This document shows, piece by piece, positions 1-9,777 of a stretch of DNA of 34,926 bases (positions are counted from its first letter, which is position 1; each line of letters opens with the position of its first letter). Below the pieces are notes generated by a model that worked only from the letters and a program-made list of their open reading frames with translations, was not told where the DNA came from and did not search any database. The stretch comes from an uncultured Solirubrobacteraceae bacterium (GTDB lineage: Bacteria; Actinomycetota; Thermoleophilia; Solirubrobacterales; Solirubrobacteraceae). The position numbers were made by a program, and so were the translations under genes. The stretch lies in the NCBI GenBank assembly GCA_902806175.1, contig CADCVQ010000025.1, positions 1 through 34,926 of the forward strand. The letters are read 5' to 3'.

Positions 1-2652
1 GAGGCTGTGGACGATGGCCTCGCGGGCCGCCTGCAGCGCTTCGGGGAGCTTCTCGGGATCCCGGCCGCCGGCCTGCGCCATCGTGTCGCGCCCCCCGCCC
101 CCGCCACCGGCGGCCGCGGCCGCCGCCTTGACGACGGCGCCGGCCTTGACCCCGCGCGCCACGAGCGCCGGCGTGACCGCCGCGACGAGATGCACACGCC
201 CGTCGACGGCCGCCCCGAGCACGGTCACGGACTCCTCACCGAGCTTGCCCTTGATGCGGTCAGCGACGTCCATGAGCTCCTTCGCGCCGTCTGCGCCGGC
301 AACGATCTCGGCGACGACATCGGCGCCGGCGATCTGTGTCGCGGCGGCGGCCAGCGCGTCGGCGTCGACGGCCGTCGCGGCGCCGTTGGCCGACGACGCC
401 TTCGCCGCCGCCTGCCTGACGCGCTCGCGCAGCTCGCCGATCGCCTCGGGCAGGTGCCCGACATGCGTCTTCAGCAGCGCGGCGGCCTCGCGTGCATTCG
501 CGTCGCTCGTGCGCAGCTCGGCGACGGCCGCCGGCCCCGTGATCGCCTCGATGCGGCGCACGTTGGCCGCGCTGGAGCTCTCGCTCTGCAGCTTGAAGAC
601 GCCGATCTCGGCTGTCGATCGGACGTGCGTGCCGCCGCACAGCTCGCGCGAGTACTCGCCGTCGCCGATCTGCACCATCCGCACGACGTCGCCGTACTTC
701 TCGCCGAAGAGCGCCATCGCGCCGAGTGCGCGCGCCTCGTCGAGCGTCGTCGTGATCGGCCGCACCGGGTCGTTGCGCAGCACCCACTCGTTGACGCGGT
801 CCTCGATCGCCTGCAGGTCCGCGGGCGAGATCCGCTCGCCATGGGAGAAGTCGAAGCGCAGCTTGTCGGGCCCGACGTAGGAGCCCGCCTGGCGCACGTG
901 CGCGCCCAGGCGCTCGCGCAGCGCGGCGTGCAGCAGGTGCGTCGCGGTGTGGTTGGCGGCCGTCGCGGTGCGCGCCGCCCGATCGACGCGGGCGACGACG
1001 CGCTCGCCGGGCACGAGCCTGCCGTGCTCGATCTCGACGACGAGCGCCTGGTCGTCGCCGACGCGCACGACGTCGACGACGCGCGTCGCGCAGTCGCCGG
1101 AATCGCACTCGATCGTCCCGCTGTCGGCGACCTGCCCGCCGCCCGTCGCGTAGAACGGCGACTCGGCGAGCTTGACGAGCATCCGCTCGTGCTCTCGCCC
1201 TCCGGCACCCGTCACGGCGCCGATCGTCGTGTGCTGCTCGAGCGTCTCGTATCCGGTGAAGTCGGTCTCGAAGCCGGCCGCCCGCGACAGCGCCAGCGCC
1301 TGCTCGCGCAGCCCGCCGCTGGAGGTCGCCTCCGTGCGGCCGCCGGCGCGCGCGCGGGCGCGCTGCTCGTCCATGAGCGCGTCGAAGCCCGTCGTGTCGA
1401 CGTCGAGGCCTTGCTCCAGCGCCAACTCCCGTGTGACCTCGAACGGAAAGCCGTAGGTGTCGTGCAGCTTGAAGGCATCCAGCGCGGGGATCATCTTCGT
1501 CGCGCGAGCGCGCTCGACGACCTCCTCGAGCAGCTTGGAGCCCTGCTCCAGGGTGCGGCCGAAGCCCTCCTCCTCGGAGCGCACCCAGCGCATGATCGGA
1601 TCGCGCTCGCGGTCGAGCTCCGGATAGGCGCTGCCCATGATCTCGATGACCCGCTCGGCGAACGCCGGCAGGAAGCCGGGCTGCATCCCGATGCGATTGC
1701 CCTGCTGGATCGCGCGGCGCATGATCCGCCGCAGGATGTAGCCGCGGTCCTCGTTGGACGGCACGACGCCGTCGGCGATCAGGAACGTCATCGCGCGCGA
1801 GTGATCGCTGAGGATCCGCAGCGCGCGCTCGTCGGGCTCGCTCATCGCCAACTCCCGCCCGAGCGCCATGAGCGGCGCGAAGGTATCGGTCTCGAAGACC
1901 GTCTCGACGCCCTGCTGGATGACGGCCATCCGCTCCAGGCCGAGGCCCGTGTCGATGTTGTTGGCGGGCAGCGGCGCGAGCGTCGGGCGGCCATGCTCGT
2001 CCTTGCCGAGGTCGTACTGCGTGAAGACGAGGTTCCAGTACTCCAGGAAGCGCTCGTTCTCGCCGCCGGGCAGGTCGTCCTCGGTGCCGTACTGCAGGCC
2101 GCGATCGATGTAGAGCTCGCTGCACGGCCCGCACGGACCGCTGTCGCCGCCCTGCCAGAAGTTCTCCGAACGCGGACACAGGACGATCCGCTCACGCGGC
2201 ACGCCCACCGACAGCCACGCCTCGATCGCCTCCTCGTCGGGCCCGAGACCGAGCTCCTCGTCACCCTCGAAGACCGTGATCCAGATGTCGTCGGGATCGA
2301 AGCCGAAGCCCGTCTGCGACAGCTCCCAGGCCCACTCGACGGCCTCCTGCTTGAAGTAGTCGCCGATCGAGAAGTTGCCGAGCATCTCGAAGAACGTCAG
2401 GTGGCGAGCGGTGTTGCCGACGTTGTCGATGTCGGTCGTGCGAAAGCACTTCTGGACCGTCGCCAGGCGCGGGTGCGGCGGCTTCTCCTCGCCGCGGAAG
2501 TACGGCACGAGCGGATGCATGCCGGCCGTCGTGAGCAGCACGGACGGGTCGTAGGCCGACGGCACGAGCGACGCCGACGGCAGGCGCCGGTGGTCGCGCT
2601 CCTCGAAGTAGCGCAGGAACGTCTCGCGGATGTCGCCCGTGGACTTGGCCAT
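1..2652 (-). CDS. alaS: Alanyl-tRNA synthetase (3' end beyond window)
   Basis: Charges tRNA-Ala with alanine in the cytoplasm. Read on the minus strand from ATG at 2652 (MAKSTGDIRETFLRYFEE), the frame stays open for 884 codons to the window edge, so only the last few residues should be missing. The class II catalytic domain is N-terminal (TAGMHPLVPYFRGEEKP; NVGNTARHLTFFEMLGNFS). The editing-domain zinc motifs are both present: HTATHLL near 950 and ELCGGTH near 630. The C-terminal part has the glycine-rich patch (GGGGGGRDTMAQAGG) typical of the C-Ala domain. The start codon overlaps the stop of mnmA as TGATG, which implies translational coupling. Identity is certain; only the 3' end is unseen. 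Confidence 0.97.
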   Translation of the reverse strand, partial: MAKSTGDIRETFLRYFEERDHRRLPSASLVPSAYDPSVLLTTAGMHPLVPYFRGEEKPPHPRLATVQKCFRTTDIDNVGNTARHLTFFEMLGNFSIGDYFKQEAVEWAWELSQTGFGFDPDDIWITVFEGDEELGLGPDEEAIEAWLSVGVPRERIVLCPRSENFWQGGDSGPCGPCSELYIDRGLQYGTEDDLPGGENERFLEYWNLVFTQYDLGKDEHGRPTLAPLPANNIDTGLGLERMAVIQQGVETVFETDTFAPLMALGRELAMSEPDERALRILSDHSRAMTFLIADGVVPSNEDRGYILRRIMRRAIQQGNRIGMQPGFLPAFAERVIEIMGSAYPELDRERDPIMRWVRSEEEGFGRTLEQGSKLLEEVVERARATKMIPALDAFKLHDTYGFPFEVTRELALEQGLDVDTTGFDALMDEQRARARAGGRTEATSSGGLREQALALSRAAGFETDFTGYETLEQHTTIGAVTGAGGREHERMLVKLAESPFYATGGGQVADSGTIECDSGDCATRVVDVVRVGDDQALVVEIEHGRLVPGERVVARVDRAARTATAANHTATHLLHAALRERLGAHVRQAGSYVGPDKLRFDFSHGERISPADLQAIEDRVNEWVLRNDPVRPITTTLDEARALGAMALFGEKYGDVVRMVQIGDGEYSRELCGGTHVRSTAEIGVFKLQSESSSAANVRRIEAITGPAAVAELRTSDANAREAAALLKTHVGHLPEAIGELRERVRQAAAKASSANGAATAVDADALAAAATQIAGADVVAEIVAGADGAKELMDVADRIKGKLGEESVTVLGAAVDGRVHLVAAVTPALVARGVKAGAVVKAAAAAAGGGGGGRDTMAQAGGRDPEKLPEALQAAREAIVHSL

Positions 2653-4043
2653 CACGCGGCGATTGTGGCGCATCCGACGATCGCGTCCCCGCGCAGGAAG
2701 ACCGCCGTCTGCCCGGGCGCGGCGCCATCGCACGGCTCGTCGAGGCGGATGTGATCGCCGTCGAGGCGACAGGCGAGCGCAGGCGCGTGGTAGCGCAGGC
2801 GGACCGCGTCTGGCTCGGCGCCGTGCAGGCGCACGCCACGCACGCGCACGGTGCTCGTCGCGAGCTGCTCGCGGCTGCCGACGGTGACCGTGTTGGCGCG
2901 GGCATCGGTGGCGATCACGTACAGCGGCTGCGCCGCGGCGATCCCGATGCCCTTGCGCTGGCCGACGGTGAAGCCGTGGTGGCCGTCGTGGCGGCCGAGC
3001 ACGCGCCCCGCGCTGTCGACGATGTCGCCCGCGCGCCGTCCGAGGCCGCCGTGGCGGGCGAGGAACGCCGCGCGGCCCGTCCCGGCGAGAAAGCACAGGT
3101 CCTGCGAGTCGGGCTTGTCTGCGACCTCGAGCCCCGCCTGCTCGGCGAGCGCGCGCACGTGCTTCTTCGTGTGCTCGCCGAGCGGAAAGCGCAGCCGCGC
3201 GAGCGCGTCGCGGCTCAGGGCGGCGAGCGTGTAGGTCTGGTCCTTCTCGGGGTCGACCGCGAGCCGCAGCAGGCCGTCGCGGGTGCGGCGGGCGTAGTGG
3301 CCGGTCGTCAGGGTCGCCGCGCCGATCCGGTCGGCGAAGTCGAGCATCGCGTCGAGGCGCACGTGGCCGTTGCAGCGCACGCACGGGTTCGGCGTCACCC
3401 CGTCGGCGTGCTCGCGCAGCCAGGGGCCGACGACGCCGTCGCGAAACTCGTCGCGCAGGTCCAGCGTGAAGTGCGCGAAGCCGAGGCTGTGCGCCAGGCG
3501 GCGCGCGCCACGGACCGCTGCCGCCGAGCAGCACGAGCGTTCGCCGTCGTTGTCGACGTCGGCCCACAGCTCGAGTGTCACGGTGGCGACCTCGCCCTCG
3601 CTGAGGATCGCGGCGACGGCGCTGTCGACGCCGCCGGACATCGCCACGAGCCTGCGCCGCGGGTCTGTCGGCAGCGCGCCGCGGGCCCGTACGGCGCCGC
3701 CGAGCGCGCGATGCAGCGCGTCGGAGACGAGATCTGCCGCGTGCAGCTTGCCGGCGCTGAGGCCGCCGAGCTCGGCAGCGATCTGCGGCGAGCCGATCCG
3801 GGCGGCGTCAAGCAGGCCGGCGCCCTCGACGAGCGCCACCGCGGCGCTGCCGGCCGCGAGCATCGTCCCGCAGCCGGAGGCCTCGAAGCCCGCCTGCATC
3901 ACGCGCTCGCCGTCGGTTGCGAGCGAGAAGCGCACGAGGTCGCCGCAGGCGGCGCCGCCCGCCGCGCCGTCGAATGCGCCCGCGGGCGTGCGCCCGCGAC
4001 CGCGCGGGTGGGTCAGGTGGTCCTCGAAGCGCTCGTCGGGCAC
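2652..4043 (-). CDS. mnmA: tRNA-specific 2-thiouridylase MnmA with N-terminal IscU/NifU-like domain
   Basis: Thiolates U34 of tRNA-Lys/Glu/Gln. The protein is 463 aa, about 100 longer than usual, because residues 1-118 form an IscU/NifU-N-like scaffold domain: HLTHPRG, ACGD (Cys33, Asp35), GCGT (Cys58), and KLHAADL (Lys99, His101), where the third scaffold cysteine is replaced by Ala102. The MnmA part follows from about 130, with the PP-loop SGGVDS (136-141), a CxxC at NPCVRCN (Cys221, Cys224), the DSQDLCF cysteine (Cys317) and the C-terminal beta-barrel (FTVGQRKGIG). Start is GTG with no Shine-Dalgarno; a TAGACT box lies 7 nt upstream. The MnmA call is firm, and the scaffold domain call rests on motif order and spacing. 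It is co-directional with alaS and overlaps it by one base. Confidence 0.93.
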   Translation of the reverse strand: MPDERFEDHLTHPRGRGRTPAGAFDGAAGGAACGDLVRFSLATDGERVMQAGFEASGCGTMLAAGSAAVALVEGAGLLDAARIGSPQIAAELGGLSAGKLHAADLVSDALHRALGGAVRARGALPTDPRRRLVAMSGGVDSAVAAILSEGEVATVTLELWADVDNDGERSCCSAAAVRGARRLAHSLGFAHFTLDLRDEFRDGVVGPWLREHADGVTPNPCVRCNGHVRLDAMLDFADRIGAATLTTGHYARRTRDGLLRLAVDPEKDQTYTLAALSRDALARLRFPLGEHTKKHVRALAEQAGLEVADKPDSQDLCFLAGTGRAAFLARHGGLGRRAGDIVDSAGRVLGRHDGHHGFTVGQRKGIGIAAAQPLYVIATDARANTVTVGSREQLATSTVRVRGVRLHGAEPDAVRLRYHAPALACRLDGDHIRLDEPCDGAAPGQTAVFLRGDAIVGCATIAA

Positions 4044-4227: not shown

Positions 4228-5265
4228 ATGCAAAAGACATTTAGTTGGATCCGCAACCTGCTGCTGCTCACCACGCTGTGGCTCGCGACTGCCGACGTGG
4301 CGCACGCCGTCCAGCGCGACGTCTGGGTGGCGGCGGTGCCCGTGAGGTTCGACTTCATGCCGTGGGGACGGGACCCGATCTCGGGCAAGACGTTCACTGC
4401 CGAGCAGCGTTTCGCGCCGGCGACGATCTATCGCCGCACGACACGCAACTGGCGCAGGCCGCTGCGCAACTCCGACGTGAGCAGCCTGCCGCGCGACGGC
4501 GTGCCGGGCCCGCTGATCCGCGCCAGGGTCGGAGACACGATCAACGTGCACTTCAAGAACCTCGAGCCCGCCGGCGGGCGCGCCCACTCGATGCACTTCC
4601 ATGGCGTGCGCTATCCGCCCAGCTCCGACGGTGCGTTCGTGCCCGGAGTCTCGGGGCCCGACGCCGAGGTCAAGCCCGGTCAGAGCTGGACCTACCGGCT
4701 GCGGGCGATCCGCGAGTCCGAGGGCGTCTGGCCCTACCACGACCACGCGCCCGACATGCACCACGCGATCGAGGAGGGGATGTACGGCGCCCTGTCGATC
4801 ATCGGGCGCAAGGATCGCTGGCCCGACCGGGAGTTCGTCGTCGTCTTCAACTCCACGCACGAGTTCGAGACGATCAACAACCGCGCCTTCATCAACAACA
4901 CGCCGACCTTCCGGGCGCGCGTCGGCGAGGTCGTGCAGTGGGACGTCCTCGCGCTCGGTTCGGCACACCACACCTTCCATGTCCACGGCCATCGCTGGCT
5001 CGACGAGAACCACACCCCGCTCGACACGCGCACCATTGGACCGGCGGAGAGCTTCAGGGTGCGCTGGACCGAGCGCGAGCCCGGCACCTGGCTGTATCAC
5101 TGCCACCGCGAGGACCACATGTCGCGCGGCATGGTCGGGCTCTACAAGGTCGCACCAGCGGCAAAGGGTCAGCGACGCAAACGGCCGGGGGGCTCGGCGG
5201 GGCAGGCCCCGGCACCGGCGGCGCCGCCGGCGCACTCAGATGACGGGCACGCGCACGAGCACTGA
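4228..5265 (+). CDS. Secreted two-domain multicopper oxidase (small-laccase type)
   Basis: Oxidises phenolic or metal substrates outside the membrane while reducing oxygen to water; the actual substrate cannot be told. 345 aa with a signal peptide ending near AHA27. Copper ligands are complete: HFHG (123-126), HDH (171-173), HTFHVHGH (248-255) and HCHxxxHM (291-298). Domain 1 has HDH instead of HCH, so the type 1 blue copper is only in domain 2. With two cupredoxin domains this fits a two-domain, trimer-forming laccase with the trinuclear site at subunit interfaces. The tail is Pro/Ala-rich and ends in a His/Asp cluster (HSDDGHAHEH) that might bind metal. The frame is open far upstream, but ATG 4228 is chosen because the signal peptide begins there. 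Confidence 0.92.
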   Translation: MQKTFSWIRNLLLLTTLWLATADVAHAVQRDVWVAAVPVRFDFMPWGRDPISGKTFTAEQRFAPATIYRRTTRNWRRPLRNSDVSSLPRDGVPGPLIRARVGDTINVHFKNLEPAGGRAHSMHFHGVRYPPSSDGAFVPGVSGPDAEVKPGQSWTYRLRAIRESEGVWPYHDHAPDMHHAIEEGMYGALSIIGRKDRWPDREFVVVFNSTHEFETINNRAFINNTPTFRARVGEVVQWDVLALGSAHHTFHVHGHRWLDENHTPLDTRTIGPAESFRVRWTEREPGTWLYHCHREDHMSRGMVGLYKVAPAAKGQRRKRPGGSAGQAPAPAAPPAHSDDGHAHEH

Positions 5266-7545: not shown

Positions 7546-7772
7546 CGCGTCATCGAACCACAACCGCCCGCCCGCCACGGGCGCGGATGCCGGGTGTTCG
7601 CCGGCGCGTGCCGGTCGCCGCCCCGGCCCGACGAGGCGTAAGACTTCGTCAGCTCGAGCCGTCCGTGGTCTCCACCATCGCGATCTCCGCTCGGAAGCCC
7701 TCGAGCGCCACCACGCGGTCCACGCAACCGCCCTACCTGCTGGTGCTGGTGATGGCCGTGCCGACCCTTGGT

Positions 7773-7778
7773 TATGCT
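7773..7778 (+). promoter_or_regulatory. Putative -10 box for a leaderless RCC1-protein transcript
   Basis: TATGCT ends 7 nt before the ATG at 7786. It overlaps another in-frame ATG (7774), which argues that 7774 is not the start. No Shine-Dalgarno is visible. Confidence 0.35.
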
Positions 7779-7785
7779 CGCCGAG

Positions 7786-9777
7786 ATGCTGCGCATGACG
7801 CGAAGGGCGGTGCTGCGCGGGCTCGCTGCAGCGGTCGCCATCGGTGTCGCGCTTCCCGCGGGAGTCCCCGCCGAGCAGGCCTCGCGACCGTCGTCAGCGG
7901 CGGCGGGCGGGCTGGACGTCGGCAGATATCACGCCTGTGCGGTGCTGACGACAGGCGGTGTGCGCTGCTGGGGCTATGGGTTCGACGGGTCGCTTGGCTT
8001 CGCCTCCAGGGAGTCGATCGGCGACGACGAGCTCCCAGCCGCCGCGGGTCCCGCGGATCTGGGTGCGGGCCGCACAGCGGTCGGGCTGAGCGCGGGATTC
8101 ACCCACACCTGTGCCGTGCTCGACGATCGCAGCGTGCGCTGCTGGGGCTTCGGCGCGGACGGGCAACTCGGGTACGGCAACACCAACTCCATCGGCGACG
8201 ACGAGACGCCGGGCTCAGCCGGCGCGGTGAACCTCGGCGTAGGACGCAGCGCCACGGCGGTCACCGCAGGGCGGGCCCACAGCTGCGCGGTGCTCGACGA
8301 CGGCAGCGTGCGCTGCTGGGGCTTTGGCTTCGACGGGCGCCTGGGCTACGGCAACACCAGCGCCATCGGCGACAACGAGGTCCCGGCTGCAGTCGGCCCC
8401 GTGAAGCTCGGTGCCGGGCGCACGGCCAGGGCGATCACCGCGGGCGACTCGCACACCTGCGCGCTGCTGGACGACGGCGCCGTGCGGTGCTGGGGCTATG
8501 CGGGCAACGGCCAACTCGGCTACGGAAACCCGACGACCTTCTCGGATACGCAGACCCCCGACACGGCCGGTCCGGTCCAGTTCCCCACCGGACGCACCGC
8601 CGTCGCGATCAGCGCCGGCAGCTATCACACGTGTGCGCTGCTCGACGACGGTACGGTGCGCTGCTGGGGCTTCGGTGGCAACGGCCGCCTCGGCTACGGC
8701 GCCACGTTCAGCGTCGGCGATAACGAGCTTCCGGTGTCATTGGCGCCCGTCGCCCTCGGCGCGGGGCGGACCGCGGTGGCGATCAGCGCGGGCGCCGATC
8801 ACACCTGTGCCGTGCTCGACAACGGGGCGGTGCGCTGCTGGGGCGCGGGCCGCAACGGCCTGCTCGGCTACGCCAACGCGAACGACGTCGGCGACGACGA
8901 ATCCCCCGGCTCGGTCGGCCCGGTCGATCTCGGGCCCGGCCGCAGGGCAGTCGCGATCAGCGCCGGCAGCAACAGCACGTGCGCCCGCCTGGATGACGCC
9001 AGCGTGCGCTGCTGGGGCGATGGCGCCAACGGGCTGCTGGGCATATGCGACACAGACGTCGTCGGCGACGACGAGACGCCCGCCTCGTCGGACCCGGTCG
9101 CTCTCGGCGACCTGGGTCTTCCGGGTCCCGCATGCGCGACGCCGGCTGCACCGACGCGACCGGGCGGCGGAAGCTCATCTCCGCTTGATTTCGGGCCGAG
9201 TCTGCCCCCGCCACCCGCCGCCGCGCCGCTCACGGTGCGCGACGACGGGCTTGCTGCCCAACGCGCTCGCGCCCGCGCCCTGCGCGACTGCCGGTCGAGC
9301 GTCTCGCGCCGGATGCGCGCGCAGCAGCGCCGAGTGCGCTCGCGCCCGCCGCGTGTACGCGCCATCGCGATCCGTCAGATCATCAGCCGCGCCGGCACGG
9401 CTCGCCGCGCCTGCCTGGAACGCTTCGCACGCCAGCCCGGGCGCATGACCTCGGTGACCGCTCGGGTGACGAGCCGGCACGCCATCACCCTCGCCTTCAA
9501 CGCCGCGGGCAGCGACGGGACGAAGCCGCCGCCTGCCCGCAGGTACCTGATCAAGCAGTCGCTGCGCCCGCTGCGCACGGCGCGCGACGTTCACCGTGCT
9601 CCCTCTCTGTGCAGGGGCGCGTGCACCTTCGACGTTTCCGAGCTCGGCGCCCCGATCACGCTGAACGTGACCGACCTGCGGCGTCGGCGCACGTATCACT
9701 ACGCGGTGGCCGCCCGGGACAATGTCTCGGGCGTCCGTGGGCCGTACTCGGAGGTCGTCAGCGCCAACACGGGCTGA
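7786..9777 (+). CDS. Exported RCC1-repeat beta-propeller protein with fibronectin-like C-terminal region
   Basis: 663 aa. The N terminus (MTRRAVLRGLAAAVAIGVAL) is a signal peptide with twin arginines, though not a full Tat consensus. Residues ~43-443 are seven 58-aa repeats, each with a core like HTCAVLDDGSVRCWG and ending GDDExP...LGAGRTAVA. Seven is the number needed to close an RCC1 propeller. Every repeat has two Cys ten positions apart, suggesting a disulfide in each blade. A Pro-rich linker and an Arg-rich helical stretch with two Cys follow, then a C-terminal segment (TYHYAVAARDNVSGVRGPYS) that reads like a fibronectin type III strand pair. The likely role is an extracellular binding scaffold; the ligand is unknown. 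In-frame ATGs at 7774 and 7795 are alternative starts. Confidence 0.85.
   Translation: MLRMTRRAVLRGLAAAVAIGVALPAGVPAEQASRPSSAAAGGLDVGRYHACAVLTTGGVRCWGYGFDGSLGFASRESIGDDELPAAAGPADLGAGRTAVGLSAGFTHTCAVLDDRSVRCWGFGADGQLGYGNTNSIGDDETPGSAGAVNLGVGRSATAVTAGRAHSCAVLDDGSVRCWGFGFDGRLGYGNTSAIGDNEVPAAVGPVKLGAGRTARAITAGDSHTCALLDDGAVRCWGYAGNGQLGYGNPTTFSDTQTPDTAGPVQFPTGRTAVAISAGSYHTCALLDDGTVRCWGFGGNGRLGYGATFSVGDNELPVSLAPVALGAGRTAVAISAGADHTCAVLDNGAVRCWGAGRNGLLGYANANDVGDDESPGSVGPVDLGPGRRAVAISAGSNSTCARLDDASVRCWGDGANGLLGICDTDVVGDDETPASSDPVALGDLGLPGPACATPAAPTRPGGGSSSPLDFGPSLPPPPAAAPLTVRDDGLAAQRARARALRDCRSSVSRRMRAQQRRVRSRPPRVRAIAIRQIISRAGTARRACLERFARQPGRMTSVTARVTSRHAITLAFNAAGSDGTKPPPARRYLIKQSLRPLRTARDVHRAPSLCRGACTFDVSELGAPITLNVTDLRRRRTYHYAVAARDNVSGVRGPYSEVVSANTG
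7912..9120 (+). repeat. Seven tandem 174-bp RCC1 repeat units
   Basis: Units begin at 7912, 8086, 8260, 8434, 8608, 8782 and 8956; the last is slightly shorter. All encode the same 58-aa pattern, and nucleotide similarity is highest around the CWG core. This is a protein repeat inside the gene, not a mobile repeat. Confidence 0.85.

Follow-up and report, generated by a model that had tools for sequence, protein, structure and literature searches.

The sulfur used by MnmA, the synthase of 2-thiouridine at U34 of tRNA, is supplied by the Tus relay (TusA-TusBCD-TusE) in Escherichia coli, or directly by the desulfurase YrvO in Bacillus subtilis (PMC5372745). C-type MnmA enzymes carry the cysteine signature CC-CxxC-C (PMC11784392), and that of Thermus thermophilus requires a [4Fe-4S] cluster (PMC8584467); a need for this cluster is disputed for E. 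coli MnmA and supported for the Thermus C-type enzyme (PMC11784392, PMC8584467). Whether MnmA works through a persulfide or an Fe-S cluster, and how sulfur is delivered to it without Tus, are matters of dispute (PMC11784392). In Clostridium perfringens, iscS, iscU and mnmA (trmU) form an operon (cpe1785-1783) whose genes are induced together on cysteine depletion (PMC2940859). Here we describe an mnmA gene of an uncultured Solirubrobacteraceae bacterium (order Solirubrobacterales, class Thermoleophilia), located in a window of 34,926 nucleotides, by which we mean the whole stretch of DNA analysed (contig CADCVQ010000025.1, assembly GCA_902806175.1). In this gene an IscU-like domain with an incomplete cluster assembly site is fused to a C-type MnmA. 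Judging from sequence comparison, we put it at about an even chance that the former scaffold has been converted into a sulfur relay that would feed MnmA in cis.

A reading made earlier from the letters alone (the sequence-only reading) had claimed an IscU/NifU-like scaffold domain fused to MnmA at 2652-4043, with no strand given. Pfam confirms both parts, and the gene lies on the minus strand with the following features:

2652-4043, minus strand: fused gene (IscU-like domain plus MnmA), 463 amino acids, GTG start
3690-4043, minus strand: IscU/NifU_N-like domain, residues 1-118 (Pfam PF01592; IscU fold, best match 4eb5_C, Z 21.3)
3945-3947, minus strand: codon of Cys33, retained in 98 of 101 fused domains, at the position of SufU Cys41/Cys40 (PMC10216065, PMC11021402)
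3939-3941, minus strand: codon of Asp35, metal-ligand position
3870-3872, minus strand: codon of Cys58, metal-ligand position
3738-3743, minus strand: codons of His101-Ala102, with Ala at the position of the third cysteine of IscU
2655-3671, minus strand: MnmA half, residues 125-463 (Pfam, NCBIfam; 2hma, Z 38.8)
3528-3533, minus strand: Cys171-Cys172, CC motif of C-type MnmA
3372-3383, minus strand: Cys221-x-x-Cys224, CxxC motif
3093-3095, minus strand: Cys317, third predicted active-site cysteine

The GTG at 4043 is the sole candidate start near the beginning of the domain and aligns with the ATG or GTG starts ('MADERFEEHL') of relatives, which disposes of the earlier worry that a start codon further downstream might exclude the domain. 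A start-codon artefact is thus ruled out, since the only nearby start precedes the IscU-like domain and the relatives agree. Chance or assembly joining is likewise ruled out, since the same fusion occurs in about 100 genomes, single-contig ones included. The NifU_N-MnmA match is far beyond chance and is conserved across the class. Moreover, the fused protein is the sole MnmA of the window genome, in which no second, unfused copy was found.

In the N-terminal part, residues 8-114 match NifU_N (PF01592) with E 2.2e-18 and 67 bits, where the cut-off is 22, and the domain call for residues 1-118 therefore holds. With this score above the gathering threshold and Z values of 18-21 to IscU structures, it belongs to the IscU/NifU_N fold. 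Its best fold match is Archaeoglobus fulgidus IscU in complex with IscS (4eb5_C, Z 21.3), and the nearest matches, 4eb5 and 4eb7, are both IscS-IscU complexes. IscU/NifU_N proteins (the clostridial NifU type, TIGR03419, and A. fulgidus 4eb5) are the best match in both sequence and fold, sharing length and the CGD, GC and KxxH motifs. The fused domain differs from them in its fusion to MnmA, in Ala102 in place of the third cysteine, and in score (62 versus 188 bits). It does not reach the equivalog cut-offs for IscU/NifU (TIGR03419, 61.7 versus 187.9 bits; TIGR01999, 44.3 versus 192.4) or SufU (TIGR01994, 26.2 versus 92.5). A functional IscU scaffold carries Cys-Asp-Cys-His-Cys, whereas the window protein has CDCHA. 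The sequence-only reading had described this site correctly: Cys33, Cys58, the Asp and the His are kept and the third cysteine is Ala102, with '...KMHCSNL' in A. fulgidus IscU against '...KLHAADL' here.

In the C-terminal part, PF03054 matches residues 132-320 (E 8.9e-56), again as expected by the sequence-only reading, and together with PF20259 and PF20258 it accounts for the MnmA half (132-461). The MnmA equivalog cut-offs are passed (NCBIfam; NF001138, 314 bits versus 284; TIGR00420, 259 versus 237), the PP-loop SGGVDS at residues 136-141 is invariant, and all three MnmA structural domains are present. The C-type pattern CC-CxxC-C is complete (C171/172, C221/224, C317); the CxxC and Cys317 had been recognised before, and the CC pair had been overlooked. 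The protein thus resembles the T. thermophilus enzyme in PP-loop, cysteines and domains, but has some 120 additional residues at its N-terminus, which form the IscU-like domain. In almost all cases the MnmA half retains the CC, the CxxC and the third cysteine. Two unfused MnmAs of family f8 (L086, L087) have an altered CC motif (CR or AC) and keep the CxxC and last cysteine. The two-domain structure for which a prediction had been proposed was returned by AlphaFold2 with confidence throughout (52-sequence alignment; pLDDT 95.8, pTM 0.93). Both domains are ordered, a long helix (residues 97-121) leads into the MnmA half, and the closest fold of the C-terminal part is MnmA (2hma, Z 38.8).

We surveyed 299 genomes of the class, many of them metagenome assemblies, of which 103 belong to the window's order; families carry anonymous codes, and f1-f4 lie in this order. 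A single tblastn match spans both halves in 94 of the 103 genomes, and one more (G011) proved fused on inspection, giving 95/103; the remaining eight were not followed up. The fusion that the sequence-only reading had proposed to survey in Thermoleophilia is thus the rule in this order. It extends to other orders as well, being found in families f5, f9, f10, f11 and part of f8 of the class and, outside the class, in f23, which contains Rubrobacter, as well as in a Rubrobacter sp. (L204). Named carriers include Solirubrobacterales, Thermoleophilaceae, Thermoleophilia and Rubrobacter. In the open-access literature, as far as our partial coverage goes, we found no description of an IscU-MnmA fusion, nor of its class-wide spread, the systematic loss of site residues or a likely switch of donor. 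A Rubrobacter xylanophilus protein is, we assume, labelled 'Bifunctional protein NifU/MnmA' in UniProt, and because of this label the architecture as such has probably been recorded already. The Rubrobacter fusion shares the architecture but has an iscS gene directly upstream, which is absent at the window locus.

Gene order in relatives bears on how the fusion came about. Separate adjacent genes in the order iscS, iscU, mnmA are found in f6, f29 and f51, and also in Lachnospiraceae, Hungatella, Cellulosilyticum, a Dehalococcoidia (Chloroflexota) and the Actinomycetota isolate Kmv33. Directly upstream of the fused gene, iscS is found in f23/Rubrobacter, f10 and f11. No iscS adjoins the fused gene in f1-f5, f8 and f9 (flanks of about 6 kb where the contig allowed), and there is no IscS neighbour in the window. 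The order iscS-iscU-mnmA in relatives, together with iscS ahead of the fused gene, shows at the level of sequence and gene order that iscU and mnmA were neighbours in one such operon before they fused. The C. perfringens operon has the same genes in the same order, but there they encode three separate proteins, and in the homologous operons checked the IscU site is intact. A quick tree of the MnmA half, labelled as fused, separate or truncated, needs 10 label changes overall, and its starred branches force at least seven for 'fused'. This points to more than one fusion, or a fusion with repeated loss, as the likely history. At one locus of an f23 genome (L159, G359:C12, 4547-6052) the IscU-like and MnmA parts lie in the same frame and are parted by a single TAA. 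Because the IscU part has the CDCHA of its fused sisters, we attribute the stop to a secondary split, to readthrough or to faulty assembly; this IscU comes in addition to the separate ones counted below.

The pattern of residue retention carries the main argument. We number the five canonical IscU assembly residues C33, D35, C58, H101 and C102. In 101 fused domains, which are related sequences and hence not independent events, Cys33 is retained in 98, Asp35 in 71, Cys58 in 80, His101 in 50 and the third cysteine in 24, and not one domain has all five (0/101). By contrast, the separate IscUs encoded beside mnmA have all five at 9/9 loci, as have 11 aligned separate IscUs (Clostridia, Chloroflexota, Kmv33). 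Exactly four ligands, either C-D-C-H or C-D-C-C, remain in about 70 of the 101. The former set binds metal in free ISCU2 (PMC11021402) and the latter resembles the zinc site that SufU has (PMC10216065). CDCHA is the pattern of f1-f4 and most of f23, CDCHG that of f5, and CDC-x-C that of f10, f11, f55 and part of f8. In the window's order the change at the third cysteine is invariant (HA in 37/37 sequences of f1-f4, HG in f5), and the Cys-to-Ala substitution noted earlier in one protein is thus general there. Cys33 alone is kept in f9 (17/17) and f12; Asp35, Cys58 and the third cysteine are lost in all 17 f9 domains. In f7 and f34 the IscU-like domain is truncated or unrecognisable. MnmAs of f7 (L050, L051, L088, L090, L093, L096) bear an N-terminal extension of about 75 residues (...GDSSRDGD...), with no Pfam match in L051, the one scanned; it looks like a shortened IscU-like remnant that has lost its cysteines, and in the tree it sits beside fused f11.

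These counts bear directly on whether the domain could be a scaffold or carrier that loads a [4Fe-4S] cluster onto the C-type MnmA half, with a bridging ligand perhaps supplied by the desulfurase or by MnmA itself to make up for the missing residue. The MnmA half has the full CC-CxxC-C of the type that needs such a cluster in Thermus (PMC8584467), the operon of origin links MnmA with IscS and IscU, and the nearest fold matches are IscS-IscU complexes. However, the full assembly site is absent from every fused domain while separate neighbours keep theirs, f9 and f12 are down to one ligand yet have an intact C-type MnmA, and many unfused MnmAs do without a fused scaffold. We therefore regard cluster loading as unlikely. 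The sequence-only reading had allowed that the domain might hand over either a cluster or sulfur. The cluster half of that proposal is disfavoured by the missing sites and by f9 with its lone Cys33, whereas sulfur fits better because the kept cysteine occupies the acceptor position of SufU.

The persulfide of SufS is accepted in SufU by the first cysteine (Cys40 in Mycobacterium tuberculosis, Cys41 in B. subtilis), and the remaining ligands continue to hold the zinc (PMC10216065). Human ISCU2 uses its third cysteine, Cys138, as acceptor and can do without the first, Cys69, at this stage (PMC11021402). The first cysteine of E. coli IscU is the most exposed one and lies closest to the IscS loop (PMC2854127). 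Cys33 aligns with SufU Cys40/41, and the lost residue (Ala102) with ISCU2 Cys138. Since the kept residue is the SufU acceptor and the lost one the ISCU2 acceptor, the fused domains appear to have given up the requirements of a scaffold and retained those of a SufU-like carrier. SufU (B. subtilis 5xt5/6jzw, M. tuberculosis 8odq) is thus similar in its acceptor-position first cysteine, a likeness of position only, in its four-ligand metal site, predicted here, and in that the window genome yielded no clear desulfurase other than SufS. It differs in that the fused domain is nearer IscU in sequence and fold, has His and not Cys as last ligand, is fused, and coexists with standalone SufU proteins.

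We infer the following chain for the relay. With iscU and mnmA fused, the IscU part has lost at least one of the five assembly residues and kept Cys33, and it would no longer assemble clusters. A mononuclear metal, probably zinc, would sit on Cys33, Asp35, Cys58 and His101. Cys33 would accept persulfide sulfur from a cysteine desulfurase and hand it over in cis at the MnmA active site, where the recipient would be Cys317 or else a cluster bound by Cys221, Cys224 and Cys317, and the domain would fill the role of E. coli TusA-TusBCD-TusE. The Tus relay and YrvO-MnmA address the same problem as proposed here, persulfide sulfur to MnmA, but with different proteins, and the carrier here would act in cis. 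The donor would probably be the IscS encoded next door in Rubrobacter, f10 and f11, and probably SufS in the window's order, because no IscS was found there.

The desulfurases of the genomes are consistent with this division. A profile search with TIGR03402 found no type I (IscS-type) desulfurase in any of 20 genomes of f1-f4, several of them single-contig; their best hits score about 117-152 bits and are SufS-like, the hit being SufS itself in the window genome and others. Families f5 and f23 possess a type I desulfurase (262-454 bits). Searches of the window genome with PF00266 and TIGR03402 gave SufS as the only clear desulfurase; it is accepted by the SufS model and, like the SufU-dependent SufS of B. 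subtilis, contains the HPHD stretch. The genome has two further NifU_N proteins, both standalone: nearly identical SufU proteins encoded at L001 and L002 (G000:C38 and C22), one of which adjoins sufS while the other lies on a different contig. More tentatively, and somewhat short of an even chance, we suggest that the scaffold has turned into a covalent sulfur carrier, perhaps several times, with loss of the assembly site, and that in the window's order it would serve SufS and not IscS.

If SufS or IscS need only be recruited, the domain might be a docking or allosteric module, with sulfur going straight from the desulfurase to MnmA and none carried on its own cysteines. The IscU fold is intact, IscS is encoded beside the fusion in f23, f10 and f11, and direct transfer from desulfurase to MnmA is known for YrvO of B. 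subtilis (PMC5372745). Yet Cys33 is kept where all other ligands are gone, a cysteine that pure docking does not need, and the 14 best-conserved columns of the domain contain no other chemically reactive residue. We hold docking without transfer to be rather improbable.

A decaying relic of the fusion, tolerated as harmless, seems to us very unlikely. Ligands have been lost in several lineages, f7 and f34 have a truncated domain and four f8 members have none, but in the window's order the domain is nearly as conserved as MnmA (mean pairwise identity 58% versus 65%) and is kept in at least 95/103 genomes. Twelve of its columns are invariant in 36 sequences of the order, including all four remaining ligand positions; selection is judged here from conservation only. 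The sequence-only reading had offered an inactive docking remnant as its other option, a description that fits only some lineages (f7, f34 and part of f16).

Several points weigh against the sulfur relay. Three fused proteins outside the class lack Cys33, and with the truncation in f7 and f34 and the absence from four sampled f8 members this means that the domain is dispensable in some lineages. Its conservation could reflect metal-stabilised docking, the standalone SufU proteins of the window genome could carry the sulfur, and the C-D-C-C domains (f8, f10, f11, f55) might still hold a cluster. Moreover, the sequences compared are kin, and the retention counts shrink in weight as they are not independent.

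An IscU derivative tied to a C-type MnmA, its cluster residues lost and one cysteine kept, is a hint that sulfur and not a cluster is handed over, and the fusion provides a single-protein system for testing the two. It may offer a route to thiolation in an order where only SufS was found, and may be a case in which a scaffold has turned into a sulfurtransferase.

Downstream of the fused gene lies alaS; the stop of mnmA and the ATG of alaS overlap by one base (TGATG):

1-2652, minus strand: alaS, running off the window

On the other side, a divergent neighbour (4245-5265, plus strand) begins about 200 bases from the start of the fused gene; by eye it has multicopper-oxidase-like HFHG and HCH motifs and a signal-like N-terminus. 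Further along, a large protein (7768-9777, plus strand) has repeated 'CAVLDDGSVRCWG' units and looks RCC1-like by eye.

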